From the NCBI GenBank assembly GCA_003248075.1, contig QJYK01000321.1:1-64000 (forward strand): a stretch of DNA of 64,000 bases, written 5' to 3'. Below are positions 13,654 to 21,127 of this stretch, in pieces. Every line of letters begins with the position of its first letter. Within the stretch, counting starts at the first letter, position 1. Both the position numbers and the translations under genes were made by a program. The notes beneath the pieces were generated by a model. That model was not told where the DNA came from. It was given only the letters and a program-made list of their open reading frames with translations, and did no database searches. Origin of the DNA: Gemmatimonadota bacterium. GTDB taxonomy: Bacteria > Gemmatimonadota > Gemmatimonadetes > Longimicrobiales > Gaopeijiaceae.

Positions 13654-14493
13654 ATGACCGAGCCCGACTGGAAGGAAGTCAAGCGCTACGAGGACATCAC
13701 CTACCACAAGTCCGACGGCGTCGCACGGATCGCGTTCAACCGACCGGAGGTGCGCAACGCGTTCAGGCCGGACACGCTCCTCGAGATGCAGGAGGCGTTC
13801 CGCGACGCGGGGGAGGATCCCGACATCGGCGTGGTCCTGCTCACCGGCAACGGGCCGTCCAGGGACGGGAAGTGGGCGTTCTGCGCCGGTGGCGACCAGA
13901 AGGTGAGGGGCGAGGCGGGGTATGTGGGCAAGAGCGGGGTTCCCCGACTGAACGTCCTGGAGCTCCAGCGCTACATCCGTTCGATGCCGAAACCGGTGAT
14001 CGCGCTGGTGGCGGGCTACGCCATCGGCGGCGGCCACGTGCTCCACGTGGTCTGTGACCTGACCATCGCGGCCGACAACGGGGTGTTCGGCCAGACGGGC
14101 CCGATCGTGGGATCCTTCGACGGCGGCTTCGGGTCATCGTACCTGGCACGCCAGGTCGGTCAGAAGCGCGCTCGTGAGATCTGGTACCTGTGCCGTCAAT
14201 ACTCGGCCCAGGAGGCGTACGAGATGGGGATGGTGAACAAGGTGGTCCCCCTGGCGCGACTGGAGGCGGAAGGCTGGCAGTGGGCTCAGGAGATCCTGGA
14301 CAAGAGCCCCCTGGCGATCCGCCTCCTCAAGAGCGCCATGAACGCGGACGTCGACGGACAGGCCGGCCTCCAGGAGCTGGCGGGCAACGCGACGCTCCTC
14401 TTCTACATGACGGAGCAGGGGCAGGAGGGGAAGAAGGCCTACCTGGAAAAGCGAAAGCCGAACTTCCGGAGATACAAATGGCTTCCCTGGTGA
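13654..14493 (+). CDS. menB: 1,4-dihydroxy-2-naphthoyl-CoA synthase
   Basis: 279-aa crotonase-fold enzyme cyclising o-succinylbenzoyl-CoA. [19 protein letters not shown], the Gly-rich [20 protein letters not shown] and [20 protein letters not shown] are characteristic of MenB rather than other crotonases, as is the C-terminal [17 protein letters not shown]. It follows menD after 33 bp; menA begins just after its stop. Confidence 0.95.
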
Positions 14494-14509
14494 GGGGCTG
14501 AGGCGCCTC

Positions 14510-15418
14510 CTGGACCGGCCCGCGGCAGCCGCACGGGTCACGCGTGCGCGTGCCTGGATCCTGGCAGCCCGTCCGAAGACGCTGACCGCGGCCGGGGCAC
14601 CCGTCGTCGCCGGCACGGGCATCGCCGCGCTGCACGGAGTCATGGCCGCGCGTCCCGCGCTCGCCGCGCTCGTGGGCGCCCTCCTGATCCAGGTGGCTAC
14701 GAACCTCGCCAACGACTACTACGACTTCGTGCGCGGGGGTGACACCGCCGAGCGGGTGGGACCGGTGCGCGTCACGCAGGCTGGCCTCCTTCCGCCCCGA
14801 ACGGTGCGCCGAGGCATGATCGTGACCCTCGTGGCCGCGCTCCTCGTGGGCGTCTACCTGGTCTCCGTCGGTGGATGGCCCGTGGTGGTGATCGGGCTCG
14901 CTTCGTTGGCGTGCGCCGTGCTGTACACGGGTGGGCCGTTTCCGCTCGCCTACCACGGATTGGGAGACGTGTTCGTGTTCGCCTTCTTCGGATTGATCGC
15001 GGTTGGGGGCACGGTATGGGTGCAGGGGCTCGTGTGGCCACCAGACGCGCTCCTCGCCGGCGCGGCGCTCGGAGCCCTCACGACCGCGATCCTGGTGGTC
15101 AACAACCTGCGCGACATCGACACGGATGCCAGGGCCGGCAAGCGCACGCTCGCCGTCCGGCTGGGGCGTGGAGGGACCCAGACCGAGTACGTCGTCCTGC
15201 TCCTTCTCGCCTTCGTCAGCCCGGTCGCCGGGGTGCTGGGCTTCGGCTGGCCGCCGTCCGCGCTGGCCCCCCTCGCTGCGGCACCTCTGTGCGTGGCGCC
15301 CACGCGTCGGGTGCTCGGGTACGACGACCCGCGGGAGCTCCTGCCGGCTCTGGGAGAGACGTCGCGGGTCGTGGCGCTCTTCGGCGCGCTGCTCGGGCTG
15401 GGGCTGGCGCTGGGGTGA
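14510..15418 (+). CDS. menA: 1,4-dihydroxy-2-naphthoate polyprenyltransferase
   Basis: UbiA-superfamily membrane prenyltransferase attaching the isoprenoid tail to DHNA. The two Asp-rich motifs are NLANDYYDFVRGGDTAERVG and NNLRDIDTDARAGKRTLAVRLG, with multiple hydrophobic helices between and after. The first ATG (14642) would remove the conserved ILAARPKTLTAAGAPVVAG helix, and no ATG or GTG lies in frame between there and the menB stop. A CTG start is therefore proposed: 14510 (GAGG 6 nt upstream) or 14498. The menE ATG follows 2 nt after the stop. Confidence 0.85.
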   Translation: MDRPAAAARVTRARAWILAARPKTLTAAGAPVVAGTGIAALHGVMAARPALAALVGALLIQVATNLANDYYDFVRGGDTAERVGPVRVTQAGLLPPRTVRRGMIVTLVAALLVGVYLVSVGGWPVVVIGLASLACAVLYTGGPFPLAYHGLGDVFVFAFFGLIAVGGTVWVQGLVWPPDALLAGAALGALTTAILVVNNLRDIDTDARAGKRTLAVRLGRGGTQTEYVVLLLLAFVSPVAGVLGFGWPPSALAPLAAAPLCVAPTRRVLGYDDPRELLPALGETSRVVALFGALLGLGLALG

Positions 15419-15420
15419 GC

Positions 15421-16722
15421 ATGGACCTGGTGGCGGAAGCGGCGGCGCGTTGGCCCGACCGGCCGGCGCTGACCGGAGCGGAGCGCACCTGGAGCTATGC
15501 CGAGCTCGACGACTGGGTCGGCGTGCTGTCGCAGAGGATCCTCGACGAGGACGAGGCTCAGGGCGGGGAGGTGCTGGCGCTCACGGTGGAGCCGGAGCCG
15601 CAGGGGGTGGCCTTCCTCTTCGCAGCCTGGCGAGCCGGCCTGACCGTGGCTCCCCTCAGCCCCCTCCTGTCGGAGGCCGAGCACTCCCGAGCCCTACGGG
15701 CGCTCACGAGCCTACGCGCGACCGAGGGGCGAGCGATCCTCTGGACCTCCGGAACCTCGGGAAGCCCACGGGGCGTCGTGCTGGGGGAGGCAGGGCTGAG
15801 GGCCAGCGCCGCTGCGGTGGCGAGGCGACTCGGTCTCTCGGACCGGGATCGGTGGCTCTTGTCGCTCTCGGTGGCGCATGTCGGGGGACTCGCCATGGTG
15901 ACGCGATCGGTGCTGCTGGGATCGGAGCTGATGGCGATGGGCTCGTTCCGGGTCGACGTGGCCGCGCGCCTCCTCGACGACGGCCGGGTGACCCACGTGT
16001 CCCTGGTGCCCACGCAGCTGGGGCGCCTGCTGGACGCGTTCGGAACACGGCCGGCACCTCCGACGCTTCGGTGCGTGCTGATCGGCGGGGCCCATGCACC
16101 GGAAGGGCTCGTGCGCCGGGCCCTGGACTCGGCCTGGCCCCTGGCGCTGACCTACGGCATGACGGAGATGACGTCACAGGTCGCGACCGCGCCCCCGGAG
16201 CTCGTGCGTCGCAAACCTGGCAGCGTGGGAGCGGCGCTCGAGGGCGTGGACATGCGAATCGGAACCGGTGGCGAGATCCTCGCCAGGGGTCCGACGTGCG
16301 CGCTGGGCTACGTCGGACAGCAGGGTCCGGTGGCCGACACCGCCGGCTGGTACCACACCGGAGACGTGGGCATCCTCGATCACGAAGGCCACCTGACCGT
16401 CACGGGTCGCTGCTCGGATCGGATCGTGACCGGTGGGGTGACGGTCGACCCGGCGGAGGTGGAGAGCGTCCTCAGGGGCCATCCCGCGGTCCTCGAGGCG
16501 TGCGTCGTGGGCATACCGGACGCGGACCTGGGCGAGCGGGTGGCAGCGGCCCTGGTGCCGGCGGAGCCCGAGCTCGACCTGGCAGAGGTGGAGGCGTGGT
16601 CGCGGGCGCGGCTGGGCGGCCCCAGGCGCCCACGACGCTGGCTCGTGCTCGACGCGCTTCCCCTCAACCGCACCGGAAAGGTGGATCGCGCGGCGGTGCT
16701 CGCCCTCCTGGTCCCGCACTGA
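15421..16722 (+). CDS. menE: o-succinylbenzoate--CoA ligase
   Basis: 433-aa acyl-adenylate-forming enzyme activating o-succinylbenzoate with CoA. ANL-superfamily motifs: ILWTSGTSGSPRGVVL, YGMTEMTSQVAT, GWYHTGDVG and the C-terminal lysine motif LPLNRTGKVDR. It is shorter than typical fatty-acyl CoA ligases, as usual for MenE. It ends the menF-D-B-A-E run; menC (OSB synthase) and menH are not in the window. Confidence 0.9.
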   Translation: MDLVAEAAARWPDRPALTGAERTWSYAELDDWVGVLSQRILDEDEAQGGEVLALTVEPEPQGVAFLFAAWRAGLTVAPLSPLLSEAEHSRALRALTSLRATEGRAILWTSGTSGSPRGVVLGEAGLRASAAAVARRLGLSDRDRWLLSLSVAHVGGLAMVTRSVLLGSELMAMGSFRVDVAARLLDDGRVTHVSLVPTQLGRLLDAFGTRPAPPTLRCVLIGGAHAPEGLVRRALDSAWPLALTYGMTEMTSQVATAPPELVRRKPGSVGAALEGVDMRIGTGGEILARGPTCALGYVGQQGPVADTAGWYHTGDVGILDHEGHLTVTGRCSDRIVTGGVTVDPAEVESVLRGHPAVLEACVVGIPDADLGERVAAALVPAEPELDLAEVEAWSRARLGGPRRPRRWLVLDALPLNRTGKVDRAAVLALLVPH

Positions 16723-16759: not shown

Positions 16760-17518
16760 TCAGTGGCGGCGGCTCCGGGCGATGCCGAAGGACAGCCCGA
16801 TCCGGAAGGTCATCAGGTCGGCCTCGCTCCGTCGAGGGTAGATGGTGATGCTGCCATCCGGGTGGTCCACGATGTCGCCCTCGACCAGAAAATCCGCCAC
16901 GCCGTTCTCGTGCCGCTCCACCCCGAAGTCCATGTGGATCGGCTTTCGGCCACTCCGCAGGCGCAGGCGGATTCCCCCGCCGGCCCGCCAGGCGAACATG
17001 CCGTCGGAGTAGTTGGTCGTGTTGGCCCACTGGTCGTACTCGGCGTCGCCGCTCAGCGAAGACGTGGTTCCGAACCAGGCGAAGCCGAACGAGGCGTTGA
17101 CGTACGGCTCGACCGCGCCGGTGGCCAGGGCGATCTCCGGTCCGAGCCCGCCGAACAGAATGCTGTTGGTCGTGGTCAGGTCGACGCCGATGCGGCAGCC
17201 GATGGGCGCGCTGAGGCACAGGTACTGGCGCTCGTGTCCGTAGATGAGGAAGCCGAAGTCACCCCGCAGCCGGAGGTGACCCGTCGGCTCCACGGGAACC
17301 GCTGCCCCGAGCTGGCCGCCGAAGCCCTGGTCGATGTGATAGCCGAGCTCCCCGATCGGATCTCCGGCCAGGAAGCCGATCCCCAGGTAACCCGCGGGAG
17401 CCCGGGCGTCCTCCCGCGGACCGAAATCCCGGCTACGCCGTTGGCCCTGGGCCGAACCCGCGGTCAGAGCCGCTGCCAAGGCCACGCTCACCCACTGCAC
17501 CACCACCGCGCGTCTCAT
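16760..17518 (-). CDS. Outer-membrane beta-barrel protein
   Basis: 252-aa exported protein: signal peptide MRRAVVVQWVSVALAAALTAGSAQGQ, then alternating amphipathic strands such as GHLRLRGDFGFLIYGH, AVEPYVNASFGFAWFG and GGGIRLRLRSGRKPIHMDFG, with an aromatic-rich end (LMTFRIGLSFGIA). This fits an OmpW/OmpA-like or similar 8-10-stranded barrel. ATG 17518 is preferred because GGAG lies 6 nt upstream; another ATG lies 6 nt before it. No recognised ligand. Confidence 0.65.
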   Translation of the reverse strand: MRRAVVVQWVSVALAAALTAGSAQGQRRSRDFGPREDARAPAGYLGIGFLAGDPIGELGYHIDQGFGGQLGAAVPVEPTGHLRLRGDFGFLIYGHERQYLCLSAPIGCRIGVDLTTTNSILFGGLGPEIALATGAVEPYVNASFGFAWFGTTSSLSGDAEYDQWANTTNYSDGMFAWRAGGGIRLRLRSGRKPIHMDFGVERHENGVADFLVEGDIVDHPDGSITIYPRRSEADLMTFRIGLSFGIARSRRH

Positions 17519-17760
17519 CGTCATCTCCGTAGACAGGTCGAAGCGAGCCCTTTCGACCCTCGGAGGTGCATCGGGCATGCCCCGCCGGGCGCCGGCGGGC
17601 CAAGTCGTTGGGAGACAGATCCTTGTCCCAGGCGTGCAGCGGAGGTGGCGCGCCTTTCCAGCGGACGTTCTGTCCCCTCTCGGGGACAGGGGGGCGCGTC
17701 GGTGCGTCAGGCCGGTCGGGGCCGGCTCGACGGCGGGCGGGGAGGGCGGAAGAGAGTGTG
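17519..17760. other. Noncoding gap
   Basis: About 240 bp between the barrel gene start and the terminator of the next minus-strand gene. It should contain the promoter for the barrel gene. No clear promoter, repeat or gene was recognised. Confidence 0.3.
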
Positions 17761-17819: not shown

Positions 17820-18392
17820 TCAGCCGATACCGATGGCGACGCCGGCACCTGCCGCGTCGGGGAGATTCGGAAGGTGTATCCCGCGGGCGCGCATCTGGAG
17901 GGCGGTCTCGGCACGCAGGTTGGCCAGCGCGTCCGGCCCGCGTTGCAGCGCGGCCTCCACGCGGCCAAGGGCCTCGTCCGGGAGATGCCCGAGCTGTACG
18001 AGGGCGGAGAGCACGGCGGTCGCGACCATGCGGCGCTCCCCTGGGGCGACGCTCTGGATCTTCAACAGGGCGGCCTCGCTCACACCGGCTTCCAGCGCAT
18101 CGGCGGTGACCGCCAGATCGCCCTGGGAGGCTTCGACCTCACCCGCGGCCAGGACCTCCTGGGCGCGCAGCAGGCCCTTGAGACGAGCCTGGAGAGCGGC
18201 CGCGATGCGCTCCATCGGAACGCCCTTCGCGCGCCCTTCATCGAGCTTGCTCTGCAGGAGCGCCCGAGGGATGTCGGCCTTGGCTGCGGCATCCATGACC
18301 GCCTGCACCCGGACCTCGGCGCCCTGTCCCTGGGCCGCCAGCCCCGTCGGGACCATAAGGATCGCCATCGTCAGAATCGTCGAGGTACGCAT
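17820..18392 (-). CDS. Exported helical protein of the sigma-factor cluster
   Basis: 190-aa protein with a signal peptide (MRTSTILTMAILMVPTGLAAQG) and an almost entirely alpha-helical, Ala/Leu/Glu-rich mature part containing DIPRALLQSKLDEGRAKGVPMERIAAALQAR-type segments and no cysteine. No catalytic motif is recognised. It is the last gene of the run anti-sigma-like protein, barrel, sigma factor, and may be a periplasmic component of the same system. The start was set at the ATG before the signal peptide rather than an upstream in-frame ATG at 18443. Confidence 0.65.
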   Translation of the reverse strand: MRTSTILTMAILMVPTGLAAQGQGAEVRVQAVMDAAAKADIPRALLQSKLDEGRAKGVPMERIAAALQARLKGLLRAQEVLAAGEVEASQGDLAVTADALEAGVSEAALLKIQSVAPGERRMVATAVLSALVQLGHLPDEALGRVEAALQRGPDALANLRAETALQMRARGIHLPNLPDAAGAGVAIGIG

Positions 18393-18468
18393 GGCCCGCT
18401 CTTCTCTCCTTTGGCACAGGTGCCGGTCCCTCCCCTTCGCCATACCGACGACCGGGCCGGGGCAGAGG

Positions 18469-19053
18469 TCACATCCACACCAGGCTGCGCTCCGCGAGCA
18501 CCTGGCGCAGAGCCTCGCGGGCGCGCAGGACGCGCATCTTCAGCGCGCTCACCGAGGCGCCGGTCGTCGCCGCCATCTCCTCGTAGGACAGCCCCTCCAG
18601 GTGCTTCATGAGGAATGCGTCTCTCAGGTCGGTCGGAAGCCGTCCGAGGCCGACCTCGAGGTCCGCCCGGAGCTCCGACCGCACCGTCTCCTGAAAGGGA
18701 CCGGGTGAGGGGTCGAGAAGCGGGATCACGTCCACGCTCACGCCCCTGCGGCGAATGTCCTTGAGGAAATCGAGGGCTCCGTTGCGCAGAATCCGGAACA
18801 CCCAAACCTCGAACCGATTCGGGTCCTCACAGGTGGCCAGGTTCCGGTACGCCTTGATGAACGCATCCTGCACCAGATCCTGAGCCGGCTCGCGGGGGAC
18901 CCCGAGGCCCCGGGCGTACCGGAACAGCCCCTCCTGGTGCCGCCGGACGAGGGTCCCGTACGACTCCGTGTCGCCGGCCAGCGCCCTGCGCACCAACGCG
19001 CCGTCGGAGATCGTGGTCACGGGCCGGGGTGTCGAGCTCCACGAAGCGGGCAT
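18469..19053 (-). CDS. ECF (RpoE-type) RNA polymerase sigma factor
   Basis: 194-aa sigma-70 family ECF factor. Region 2: LVRRHQEGLFRYARGLGVPREPAQDLVQDAFIKAYRNL, with FEVWVFRILRNGALDFLKD after it. Region 4: LGRLPTDLRDAFLMKHLEGLSYEEMAATTGASVSALKMRVLRAREALRQ. ATG at 19053 lies 2 nt after the stop of the upstream barrel gene; a GTG at 19020 (VTTISDGALV) is an alternative matching usual ECF N-termini. The linkage to a membrane protein with an anti-sigma-like N-terminus suggests release by an envelope signal. Confidence 0.9.
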   Translation of the reverse strand: MPASWSSTPRPVTTISDGALVRRALAGDTESYGTLVRRHQEGLFRYARGLGVPREPAQDLVQDAFIKAYRNLATCEDPNRFEVWVFRILRNGALDFLKDIRRRGVSVDVIPLLDPSPGPFQETVRSELRADLEVGLGRLPTDLRDAFLMKHLEGLSYEEMAATTGASVSALKMRVLRAREALRQVLAERSLVWM

Positions 19054-19055
19054 GG

Positions 19056-20258
19056 TCAACCCACCACGAGCACGGCGACGTATCCCCCGAAGCCGTCCGG
19101 CTTCCGGCCCGCCACCGACTCGGGAACGAACCACGAGCCGTCGCTCGCCACGAACGCGTAGTAGTAGACCCCGGGCCGGAGCCGTACCCCCAGCGTCCAT
19201 TGGCCGTCGCGCAGCGTCATGGGCCGGGGCTTCCAGTCGGTGAAGTCGCCCGCGACGCTCGGGGTCCCCGTGGCTTCGTCGGCGCGGAGGGCGAGCGTGG
19301 CGACGCCCGCCTCGTAGCGTGCCGGAACCGGCGCGGGCGGGGGGGACGGCCTCACGAGCGCGATCGAAACCCCGACGCTCCACGACGTTCGCCCCGGGGT
19401 CTGGAACAGCGGATCGAAGGCGTCCCGACGCACGGAGCCGGTGAGGGAGAGTCGCTGCCCCACGACAAACGCGGTTCCCAACGCCCACGGCGTGGCGCCC
19501 ATCCCGTCGGCCAGCCATGCGCCGATGGAGCCCCACGCCTGAACGGGGCCGCCGCTCAGAAAGGCTGTGGCGCCGAGGTAGGGATACGTCCCCTCCTCCG
19601 CCCAATGGCTCCGACCCTCCGCGGAGAGCACCAGCGTAGGGGTGAGGGCCGCAGAGACCCTCACTTGTGCGAGACCCAGCGCGCGGTCGAAGGCCTGGTC
19701 CGCGAAGTCCGAATGGAAGGCCGAGACGCCCGCCCGTGCCTCGGCGATCAGGTCCGCACGGTGCAGCGCCACCAGTGGGGTGAGCTCCATCGAAGCACCC
19801 CAGCCGGACAACGAGGGCTCGACCCCGCCCCCGAGCGGGCCACGGCGCCGCAGGGGGACATTCCCCACGAGGGGCGGTACGTGGACCCCCGAGGTCACGC
19901 TGTCGAGGCGTGCACCCTGGGCGAAGGTCTGGGCCGAGACATGCAGTCCGAGCTCGAGAGGCCTGCGTCGCCGGGAGGCGCGCAGGGAAGACGCGAGCAT
20001 GGCCCAGGGGGCGTCGGTCGAGGTCATCGGTACGCCGGCCAGCGCGCCGATCCAGCTGGCACCGTCCAGGTAGCGGACGCCGAGCAGGGCGCTCCCGTCG
20101 GCTCCACCCACCGGTGAGCCCTGGTAACGGTACTGCCCGCCCAGGGCCTCGAACCGCCACTCTTGAGCCCCACCCGAATCGGGTGAGACCGAGACCGCCA
20201 GGCCGACGACCGCGACGAATCCGATCCGGGCGGGACGCCCGGCCGCTTCCCGCCTCAT
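19056..20258 (-). CDS. Predicted outer-membrane barrel with C-terminal CBM48-like domain
   Basis: 400-aa exported protein. After a signal-like N-terminus (IGFVAVVGLAVSVSPDSGGAQ), residues about 30-310 form alternating amphipathic strands typical of a beta-barrel. Residues about 320-400 form a glycogen-binding/isoamylase-N (AMPK-beta, CBM48) domain: SVAGDFTDWKPRPMTLRDG, GVRLRPGVYYYAFV and PDGFGGYVAVLVV. The ATG overlaps the upstream stop (ATGA), and the sigma factor follows after 2 nt. It shares this terminal domain with the upstream gene, suggesting the two bind the same kind of polysaccharide or each other. The barrel assignment is inferred from strand pattern. Confidence 0.72.
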   Translation of the reverse strand: MRREAAGRPARIGFVAVVGLAVSVSPDSGGAQEWRFEALGGQYRYQGSPVGGADGSALLGVRYLDGASWIGALAGVPMTSTDAPWAMLASSLRASRRRRPLELGLHVSAQTFAQGARLDSVTSGVHVPPLVGNVPLRRRGPLGGGVEPSLSGWGASMELTPLVALHRADLIAEARAGVSAFHSDFADQAFDRALGLAQVRVSAALTPTLVLSAEGRSHWAEEGTYPYLGATAFLSGGPVQAWGSIGAWLADGMGATPWALGTAFVVGQRLSLTGSVRRDAFDPLFQTPGRTSWSVGVSIALVRPSPPPAPVPARYEAGVATLALRADEATGTPSVAGDFTDWKPRPMTLRDGQWTLGVRLRPGVYYYAFVASDGSWFVPESVAGRKPDGFGGYVAVLVVG

Positions 20259-20941
20259 GTCTCGTCGGTTCGCGCCGGCACGAGGACCGCGACCCGGCTG
20301 TTCGTTCCACCGAAGCCGTCGTCGACCCGCTCGGCGAACGGATCCTGCACCCACCGGGTGCCATCCACGACGAAGGCGTAGTCGTGCAGCCCCGGCTCCA
20401 CGGGAACCAGCACGGTCCACACGCCCGGCGTTCGCTGGGTGAGGACGGGTCCGGGCTCCCAACCCGTGAAGTCTCCCGCCAGGCGGACGCTTCGTGCCCC
20501 CGGCGCGTCGAGCCGGAAGACCACCAGGACCGTGCCCTCCACGCCCGCTGTCGCCATGACGGTGCCGCCGGCCTGGATCGGGGTTCCCGCCGGAGGAGCC
20601 TCCGGGCCGCGTGTCCACAGGGTGGTCAGGAGGAGCACCGCGGCCGCCGCCATGCCCCACGCGGGCCGGACCCGGACCGTCACGCTCCTGGGGGTCCAGA
20701 GCCAGGCGGCGCTCCTGCGCGCGCGACCGTGGCTCGCCACCGTCGGCGGCTCTTTTCGAGGGGCACGTGCGGAAACGGCCGCGACGACGGCCTCCGAAAC
20801 GTCGGGGGCGGGCTCGTCGCGGAGAGGGGACAGTGCCGCGTTCATCGCCTTGCGAAGGGCTTCCGCTTCCCGTCGCTCGGCATCGGAAAGGACCGAGCCC
20901 CTCAGCTCGCCATCCAGGTGTCGATGGATCCGCAGGTTCAT
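20255..20941 (-). CDS. Single-pass membrane protein: anti-sigma-like N-terminus plus CBM48-like domain
   Basis: 228 aa. Residues 1-60 (IHRHLDGELRGSVLSDAERREAEALR) resemble the cytoplasmic helix of anti-sigma factors that begins HLDGEL; the Zn-binding cysteines are absent. One hydrophobic segment spans about 95-110 (WGMAAAAVLLLTTLWT). Residues about 138-222 are a CBM48/AMPK-beta-like domain: VRLAGDFTGWEPGPVL, GVWTVLVPVEPGLHDYAFVVDG and VDDGFGGTNSRVAVL. With the sigma factor two genes downstream, it is a good candidate anti-sigma factor with a periplasmic carbohydrate-binding sensor. This is inference; the domain layout is seen directly. Confidence 0.72.
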   Translation of the reverse strand: MNLRIHRHLDGELRGSVLSDAERREAEALRKAMNAALSPLRDEPAPDVSEAVVAAVSARAPRKEPPTVASHGRARRSAAWLWTPRSVTVRVRPAWGMAAAAVLLLTTLWTRGPEAPPAGTPIQAGGTVMATAGVEGTVLVVFRLDAPGARSVRLAGDFTGWEPGPVLTQRTPGVWTVLVPVEPGLHDYAFVVDGTRWVQDPFAERVDDGFGGTNSRVAVLVPARTDET

Positions 20942-21127
20942 TGGAGCAGTCCGTACGTTGTCGCGAGGCCCCCGGGCGAAGGCTCCTCGGGGGCGCCGAC
21001 GGGCCCGAGGCGTGCACGAAGCGCGCCAGTGGGGGCGTCACGTCACCAGGGAAGCGACGATCGAGCACCCAATCGCGTCACATGCACGGCTGGCGCCTCT
21101 CGGGTCGGGTCCGCATCTTCGCGCCCC

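Follow-up and report, generated by a model that had tools for sequence, protein, structure and literature searches.

Closest described systems and the locus

In the FecIRA system, an extracytoplasmic function (ECF) sigma factor, an inner-membrane anti-sigma factor and an outer-membrane barrel are encoded together, the barrel of Fec being a 22-strand TonB-dependent receptor with a plug and a signalling domain. The same gene set is found in the cluster described here, which lies at positions 17820 to 20941 of contig QJYK01000321.1 of a Gemmatimonadota bacterium, within a window of 64,000 nucleotides (the whole stretch of DNA that was analysed), and which encodes a predicted anti-sigma factor (P0001), a barrel (P0002), an ECF sigma factor (P0003) and an exported helical protein (P0004, termed HEL). 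The barrel of this cluster, however, is predicted to have 14 strands, and Pfam identified no plug or STN domain in the barrel family; the FecIRA comparison drawn in an earlier note on this DNA hence holds for the set of sigma factor, anti-sigma factor and barrel and is loose beyond it.

The same note knew of no characterised system of this form and thereby overlooked two. RsgI of Clostridium thermocellum is an anti-sigma-I factor which bears a carbohydrate-binding module (CBM), adjoins its sigma factor and is autoregulated together with it (PMC4711584). The present cluster resembles it in each of these points, with autoregulation being predicted here, but sigma-I is not an ECF factor, the RsgI modules are CBM3, PA14 or GH10 on a Gram-positive surface, and neither a barrel nor a HEL partner is present. 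The RsgI N-terminal domain gave no Pfam match in 32 members of the P0001 family, whose partner is an ECF sigma factor. Dma1-3/Das of Bacteroides (ECF21) likewise combine an ECF sigma factor, an anti-sigma factor and an outer-membrane beta-barrel to which the latter is tied; Dma is however one polypeptide, composed of anti-sigma domain, transmembrane segment, disordered tether and barrel, which was reported in Bacteroidota only and with no CBM mentioned (PMC13088901), whereas here anti-sigma factor and barrel are two genes and two proteins, each with a CBM48. The cluster lacks one defining feature of each of RsgI, Dma and Fec. The class I anti-sigma factors (ASDI) RseA, RsiW and RskA possess an N-terminal helical sigma-binding domain, often a transmembrane segment, and optionally a zinc motif (PMC7406223); P0001 shares the helical N-terminus and the transmembrane segment but differs by its CBM48/AMPK-like sensory domain, which the open-access literature searched does not describe for them. 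In that literature, which did not cover the full ECF classification, no description of an ECF anti-sigma factor with a CBM48 or glycogen-binding domain was found.

Taken together, the cluster is likely to encode an ECF sigma/class I anti-sigma switch with a periplasmic CBM48 as sensing part, feedback on its own operon and HEL as a separate output. The architecture, gene pairing, conservation and promoter pattern behind this proposal are read directly from sequence, and its features, all on the minus strand, are:

20255..20941, minus: P0001, predicted single-pass anti-sigma factor with periplasmic CBM48, 228 aa (Pfam PF16561/PF02922, AlphaFold2, RseA/RsiW profile matches, kept in relatives)
20765..20941, minus: cytoplasmic anti-sigma domain of P0001, residues 1-59, no zinc motif (AlphaFold2, family profile against PDB)
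20615..20665, minus: predicted transmembrane helix of P0001, residues 93-109 (AlphaFold2 helix, hydrophobic sequence)
20285..20530, minus: presumably periplasmic CBM48/AMPK-beta-like domain of P0001, residues 138-219 (Pfam, AlphaFold2, Foldseek)
19056..20258, minus: P0002, predicted exported outer-membrane barrel with C-terminal CBM48, 400 aa (AlphaFold2, Foldseek)
19353..20162, minus: 14-stranded barrel of P0002, residues 33-302 (AlphaFold2; putative topology)
19062..19319, minus: second CBM48, residues 314-399 of P0002, presumably periplasmic (Pfam, family members, AlphaFold2)
18469..19053, minus: P0003, ECF sigma factor, 194 aa (PF04542, PF08281, TIGR02937)
17820..18392, minus: P0004, HEL, exported helical protein, 190 aa (alignment, homologues in the phylum and in other phyla)
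21056..21082, minus: predicted ECF promoter of anti-sigma/barrel/sigma, TGTGAC-N17-CGTC, 114 bp before the ATG
18447..18473, minus: predicted ECF promoter of HEL, TGTGAC-N17-CGTC, 54 bp before the ATG

The genes of P0001 and P0002 overlap by 4 bp, while 2 bp lie between those of P0002 and P0003 and 76 bp between those of P0003 and P0004. The earlier note had read from the letters four closely spaced minus-strand genes for a protein with an anti-sigma-like start and a periplasmic CBM48/AMPK-beta-like domain, a barrel with the same kind of terminal domain, an ECF sigma factor and an exported helical protein, and the gene calls, domain searches and models agree with it. What is new beyond it are the two conserved promoters and the conservation of the gene set.

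The predicted sigma/anti-sigma pair

P0003 consists of sigma-70 regions 2 and 4 only, both above cut-off (PF04542, 7e-16; PF08281, 5e-13), with TIGR02937 (sigma70-ECF) matching as well, and is an ECF sigma factor by its domain content. For P0001, AlphaFold2 (32 sequences) predicts helices at residues 3-9, 20-42 and 49-59, with pLDDT mostly 85-98, and a CBM sandwich at 138-219 also modelled at high confidence, the transmembrane helix lying in between. The sandwich passes the Pfam cut-offs of AMPK1_CBM (PF16561, 2.6e-9) and CBM_48 (PF02922, 1.6e-7), and its best Foldseek matches are AMPK beta subunits, the AMPK beta1 glycogen-binding domain 1z0m reaching a target-normalised TM-score of 0.87. Among the PDB matches listed for the family profile, those to its N-terminal region were confined to two anti-sigma factors, RseA (1or7_C, E=0.047) and RsiW (5wuq_C, E=0.15), both of them weak. 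P0001 itself is devoid of the Hx3Cx2C zinc motif, which is absent from about 44% of known ASDIs and hence optional in the class (PMC7406223). HxxxCxxC occurs in five relatives from other phyla (L134, L140, L144, L149, L156), and the L140 protein, which also contains the CBM48, has a zf-HC2 match above the curated cut-off. Of the features required of an ASDI, a helical N-terminal domain and linkage to an ECF sigma gene are present in P0001. Considering the profile matches, the helical domain, the zinc-finger homologues and the conserved gene set with its promoters, P0001 is very probably the class I anti-sigma factor of the adjacent P0003.

Promoters and predicted regulon

A conserved ECF-type pattern, TGTGAC-N16/17-CGTC, precedes the anti-sigma/barrel/sigma operon and, separately, HEL, the -35 element of the predicted HEL promoter overlapping the sigma stop codon. 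Counted with a slightly looser pattern at most 200 bp upstream of a gene, it was found before HEL in 22/33 and before the anti-sigma gene in 19/33 cases, compared to 3/31 for sigma and 0/38 for the barrel. Besides these, it precedes genes of a lipoprotein family (fam4, 4/6) and DUF4382 genes (4/9; assignment confirmed by Pfam in one member), and just one of the 245 other neighbouring genes. As the motif precedes the operon and HEL but only this one of the 245 other genes, the regulon is probably small and autoregulated. The single neighbour is L053:8982-10703, with its motif at L053:8905 (plus strand), and encodes a 573-aa exported protein in which IPT-like and kelch-like sequence was recognised by eye.

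Within the home genome, a correctly oriented match a short distance upstream of a gene was found at these two positions only. A wider home-genome regulon was considered and rejected: the pattern gave 23 matches as compared to 7 in a reversed control, the others being either intragenic or lacking a gene shortly downstream.

The home genome harbours a second, diverged cluster (G000:C136, L005:6614-10762, minus strand) in the order sigma/anti-sigma/barrel/HEL, preceded by a fam4 gene for a lipoprotein-like protein of 354 aa without Pfam match. Upstream of fam4, this cluster and its same-genus counterpart share GTTACC...CGTC (read by eye), and the difference between this putative promoter and GTGACC...CGTC could insulate the two sigma factors from each other. 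Outside the phylum, several sigma genes have GTAAC-N16/17-CGTC upstream, as does HEL in L138.

The predicted barrel, HEL and the presumed compartment of the CBM48 domains

AlphaFold2 models P0002 at high confidence as a 14-strand barrel followed by a CBM, and Foldseek places the barrel nearest to OmpG/FadL-type barrels (E about 1e-7). On its own, P0002 stays below the PF16561 cut-off (21.3 versus 26.8 bits), while 35 of 35 members of its family are matched at the E<=0.1 threshold of the scan. The likeness between the two CBM48 copies in DGFGG...VAVL, which the earlier note had pointed out, is real. As the strand number is even and the turns on one side of the barrel comprise a mere 2-4 residues, both ends of P0002, including the C-terminal CBM48, would face the periplasm, which would bring the CBM48s of P0001 and P0002 into the same compartment. 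HEL has the invariant residues K49, E52, G53 and K56 in the alignment, and neither Pfam nor PDB gave a convincing match for it.

The putative sugar site of the CBM48 domains

When compared with AMPK beta1, the P0001 domain keeps the sugar-stacking tryptophans W100 and W133 as well as N150, while the contact lysine K126 is replaced by Ala, and the P0002 domain possesses neither K126 nor N150. Across the family, 54 anti-sigma CBM48s retain W100 in 54, W133 in 47, N150 in 43 and K126 in 1 case, and 47 partner CBM48s retain W100 in 45, W133 in 44, N150 in 13 and K126 in 4, as compared to K126 being kept in 112 of 133 non-sigma CBM48s. Glycogen binding by AMPK drops markedly when K126 or the tryptophans are mutated (PMC2642990); plant AKINbeta2, possessing the two tryptophans but neither K126 nor N150, still binds starch (PMC4032982). 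Considering the retained tryptophans, the loss of K126 and the AKINbeta2 precedent, the ligand site is likely kept in these domains but its specificity has probably changed. The cluster domains resemble the AMPK beta glycogen-binding domain in fold and, with N150 kept chiefly on the anti-sigma side, in W100/W133/N150 and differ from it by the loss of K126, by being extracytoplasmic and by their fusion to an anti-sigma factor or a barrel.

These data bear on the idea of an alpha-glucan sensor, in which maltodextrin or another glucan would enter the OmpG-like barrel and be held by its CBM48, while glucan binding to the anti-sigma CBM48 would free the sigma factor. The AMPK glycogen-binding domain as closest fold, the conserved W100, W133 and N150 of the anti-sigma domains, starch binding by AKINbeta2 and the OmpG size of a 14-strand barrel are in line with it, but K126 is nearly always absent from both kinds of domain, N150 is mostly lost from the partner domains, and the predicted regulon contains no transporter, glycosidase or other sugar-use gene, the glycogen synthase and other CBM48 proteins of the home genome all being located outside of it. 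We consider this explanation plausible but rather unlikely; glucan or barrel occupancy, which the earlier note took to be passed on to the sigma factor, is at most a candidate signal.

Conservation and spread

The four-gene set is strongly conserved, being present in most sampled Gemmatimonadota and in several other phyla. Searches of the home genome and its relatives found PF16561 matches mostly paired about 1.15 kb apart, i.e., in the cluster, with the CBM48 family present in 38 of 59 relatives, where gene calling revealed anti-sigma/barrel/sigma/HEL, sigma/anti-sigma/barrel/HEL and other layouts. HEL homologues were identified in 258 of 395 genomes of the phylum. Among 20 class-level HEL loci picked from the matches listed, 18 are complete, the prevailing order being sigma/anti-sigma/HEL/barrel, and two are partial, their gene calls being merged or missing. 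Recurrence of the gene order in other genomes, on which the earlier note had made its reading depend, is thus observed, the order being shuffled in a few. Variants with a sigma factor, a CBM48 anti-sigma factor and usually HEL were found in Balneolaceae, Rhodothermaceae, Spirochaetes, Nitrospirae, Deltaproteobacteria and Brocadiia, names which derive from metagenome-assembled genomes, so that single labels are to be read with care. Some of these loci also possess a second CBM48, which is carried by a barrel or, in L124, L138 and perhaps L162, by a lipoprotein.

An exception to the linkage of anti-sigma and ECF sigma genes is family f3, whose clusters have no linked sigma gene, several of them nevertheless keeping the promoter motif. 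Each f3 genome checked contains one clear orphan sigma orthologue (232-253 bits, the next best scoring at most about 136), and these orphans look like the partners of the unlinked clusters. Their genes (L177:1498-2040, L179:1498-2040, L180:1501-2043, L181:1534-2040 and L182:1492-2031) have no anti-sigma gene alongside, and a conserved 377-aa gene adjoins each on the other strand.

Many anti-sigma factors have passive extracytoplasmic parts. It could accordingly be argued that the genes are neighbours by history and that the CBM48 is a mere structural spacer on the anti-sigma factor, and the shuffling of gene order among lineages would fit this. The set, however, persists across phyla despite the reshuffling and with shared promoters, and the ligand-site residues W100/W133/N150 are conserved, which renders such a bystander association very improbable.

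An apparent fusion of anti-sigma factor and second CBM48 in L102 was rejected, as the protein has an unresolved position (X) and, behind it, a signal peptide in its middle, which points to an assembly gap. In loci of Krumholzibacteriota, Thermosipho and Eisenbacteria (L123:3487-6255, L126:4059-5948 and L150:1933-6951), exported proteins combine one or several CBM48s with subsequent barrel-like sequence; small CBM48 lipoproteins are found there too, with no sigma gene in the stretch fetched. The CBM48 may occur more generally as a module of the outer membrane.

Next to the cluster, a 254-aa exported barrel-like protein is encoded after HEL on the same strand (16760-17524, minus); it has neither promoter motif nor Pfam match and apparently stands outside the conserved set. 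Converging on the cluster are genes for an enoyl-CoA hydratase, a UbiA prenyltransferase and an AMP-binding protein (13654-16722, plus), probably menB, menA and menE of menaquinone synthesis.

Co-inheritance of the four proteins

The pairwise distances of the four proteins correlate with r 0.60-0.83, a value as high being reached in none of 2000 permutations, and the four protein trees broadly agree, with two layouts grouped alike (one row of the tree comparison, L041, carried a wrong layout label). Since shared descent alone would give the same result, this agreement documents co-inheritance rather than contact. Among the partial distance correlations on 55 loci, that between HEL and barrel is the highest (0.42 [0.32-0.48]) and exceeds those of domains within one protein.

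The latter finding is consistent with a sensor of protein contact, in which the CBM48 would have turned into a protein-binding domain and the anti-sigma CBM48 would bind to HEL, to the barrel or to the CBM48 of the latter, thereby reporting presence, assembly or correct spacing of the module. Loss of K126 from both anti-sigma and partner CBM48s, the second CBM48 on barrel or lipoprotein, and a regulon which essentially equals the module itself fit this idea as well. The two CBM48s show a partial correlation of just 0.17, which is not special, linkers of about 28 and 12 residues are, by estimate, so short that the proteins could touch across the periplasm only with difficulty, and the retained Trp/Asn ligand residues would be needless. 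Contact sensing is therefore regarded as quite possible, though somewhat short of an even chance.

Proposed mechanism

The suggested mechanism assumes that inner-membrane P0001 holds the sigma factor P0003 via its N-terminal helices, the periplasmic CBM48 of P0001 serving as the sensing part. A periplasmic signal would then release the sigma factor, probably by proteolysis; regulated proteolysis is possible as a PF02163 site-2 protease homologue is present in the genome. Thus freed, the sigma factor would transcribe from TGTGAC-N16/17-CGTC both the anti-sigma/barrel/sigma operon, as feedback, and HEL, as separate output, which would yield an envelope module composed of the 14-strand outer-membrane barrel with its periplasmic CBM48 and exported HEL. 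What the anti-sigma CBM48 reads would be the condition of this module or of a glycan handled by it in the periplasm. As the HEL-barrel pair shows the highest partial correlation while the pair of sigma factor and anti-sigma domain is unremarkable (0.14), we tend to favour sensing of the barrel/HEL module or its ligand over simple nutritional glucan sensing.

Two observations weigh against the switch. The strict motif is absent from 14 of 33 anti-sigma and 11 of 33 HEL genes, some of them at contig ends or inside operons, and co-evolution does not single out the pair of sigma factor and anti-sigma domain, whose partial correlation was 0.39 on 27 loci and 0.14 on 55. Co-evolution as proof of their contact was consequently dropped, being suggestive on the smaller set and not reproduced on the larger one.

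More tentatively, the cluster may be regarded as a two-protein trans-envelope switch resembling a split Dma, widespread in Gemmatimonadota and several further phyla, in which the inner-membrane CBM48 anti-sigma factor and the outer-membrane CBM48 barrel or lipoprotein would respond to one shared periplasmic ligand or to one another and control HEL.

Significance

Gemmatimonadota are common soil bacteria whose envelope signalling has received little attention. As the module is present in most sampled genomes of this phylum and crosses into others, its signal is probably a general property of the envelope. The predicted promoter, the small regulon and a sensory domain for which ligand residues are known in relatives render this signal directly testable, and the system would show that an AMPK-type glycan module has been reused for gene control across the Gram-negative envelope.

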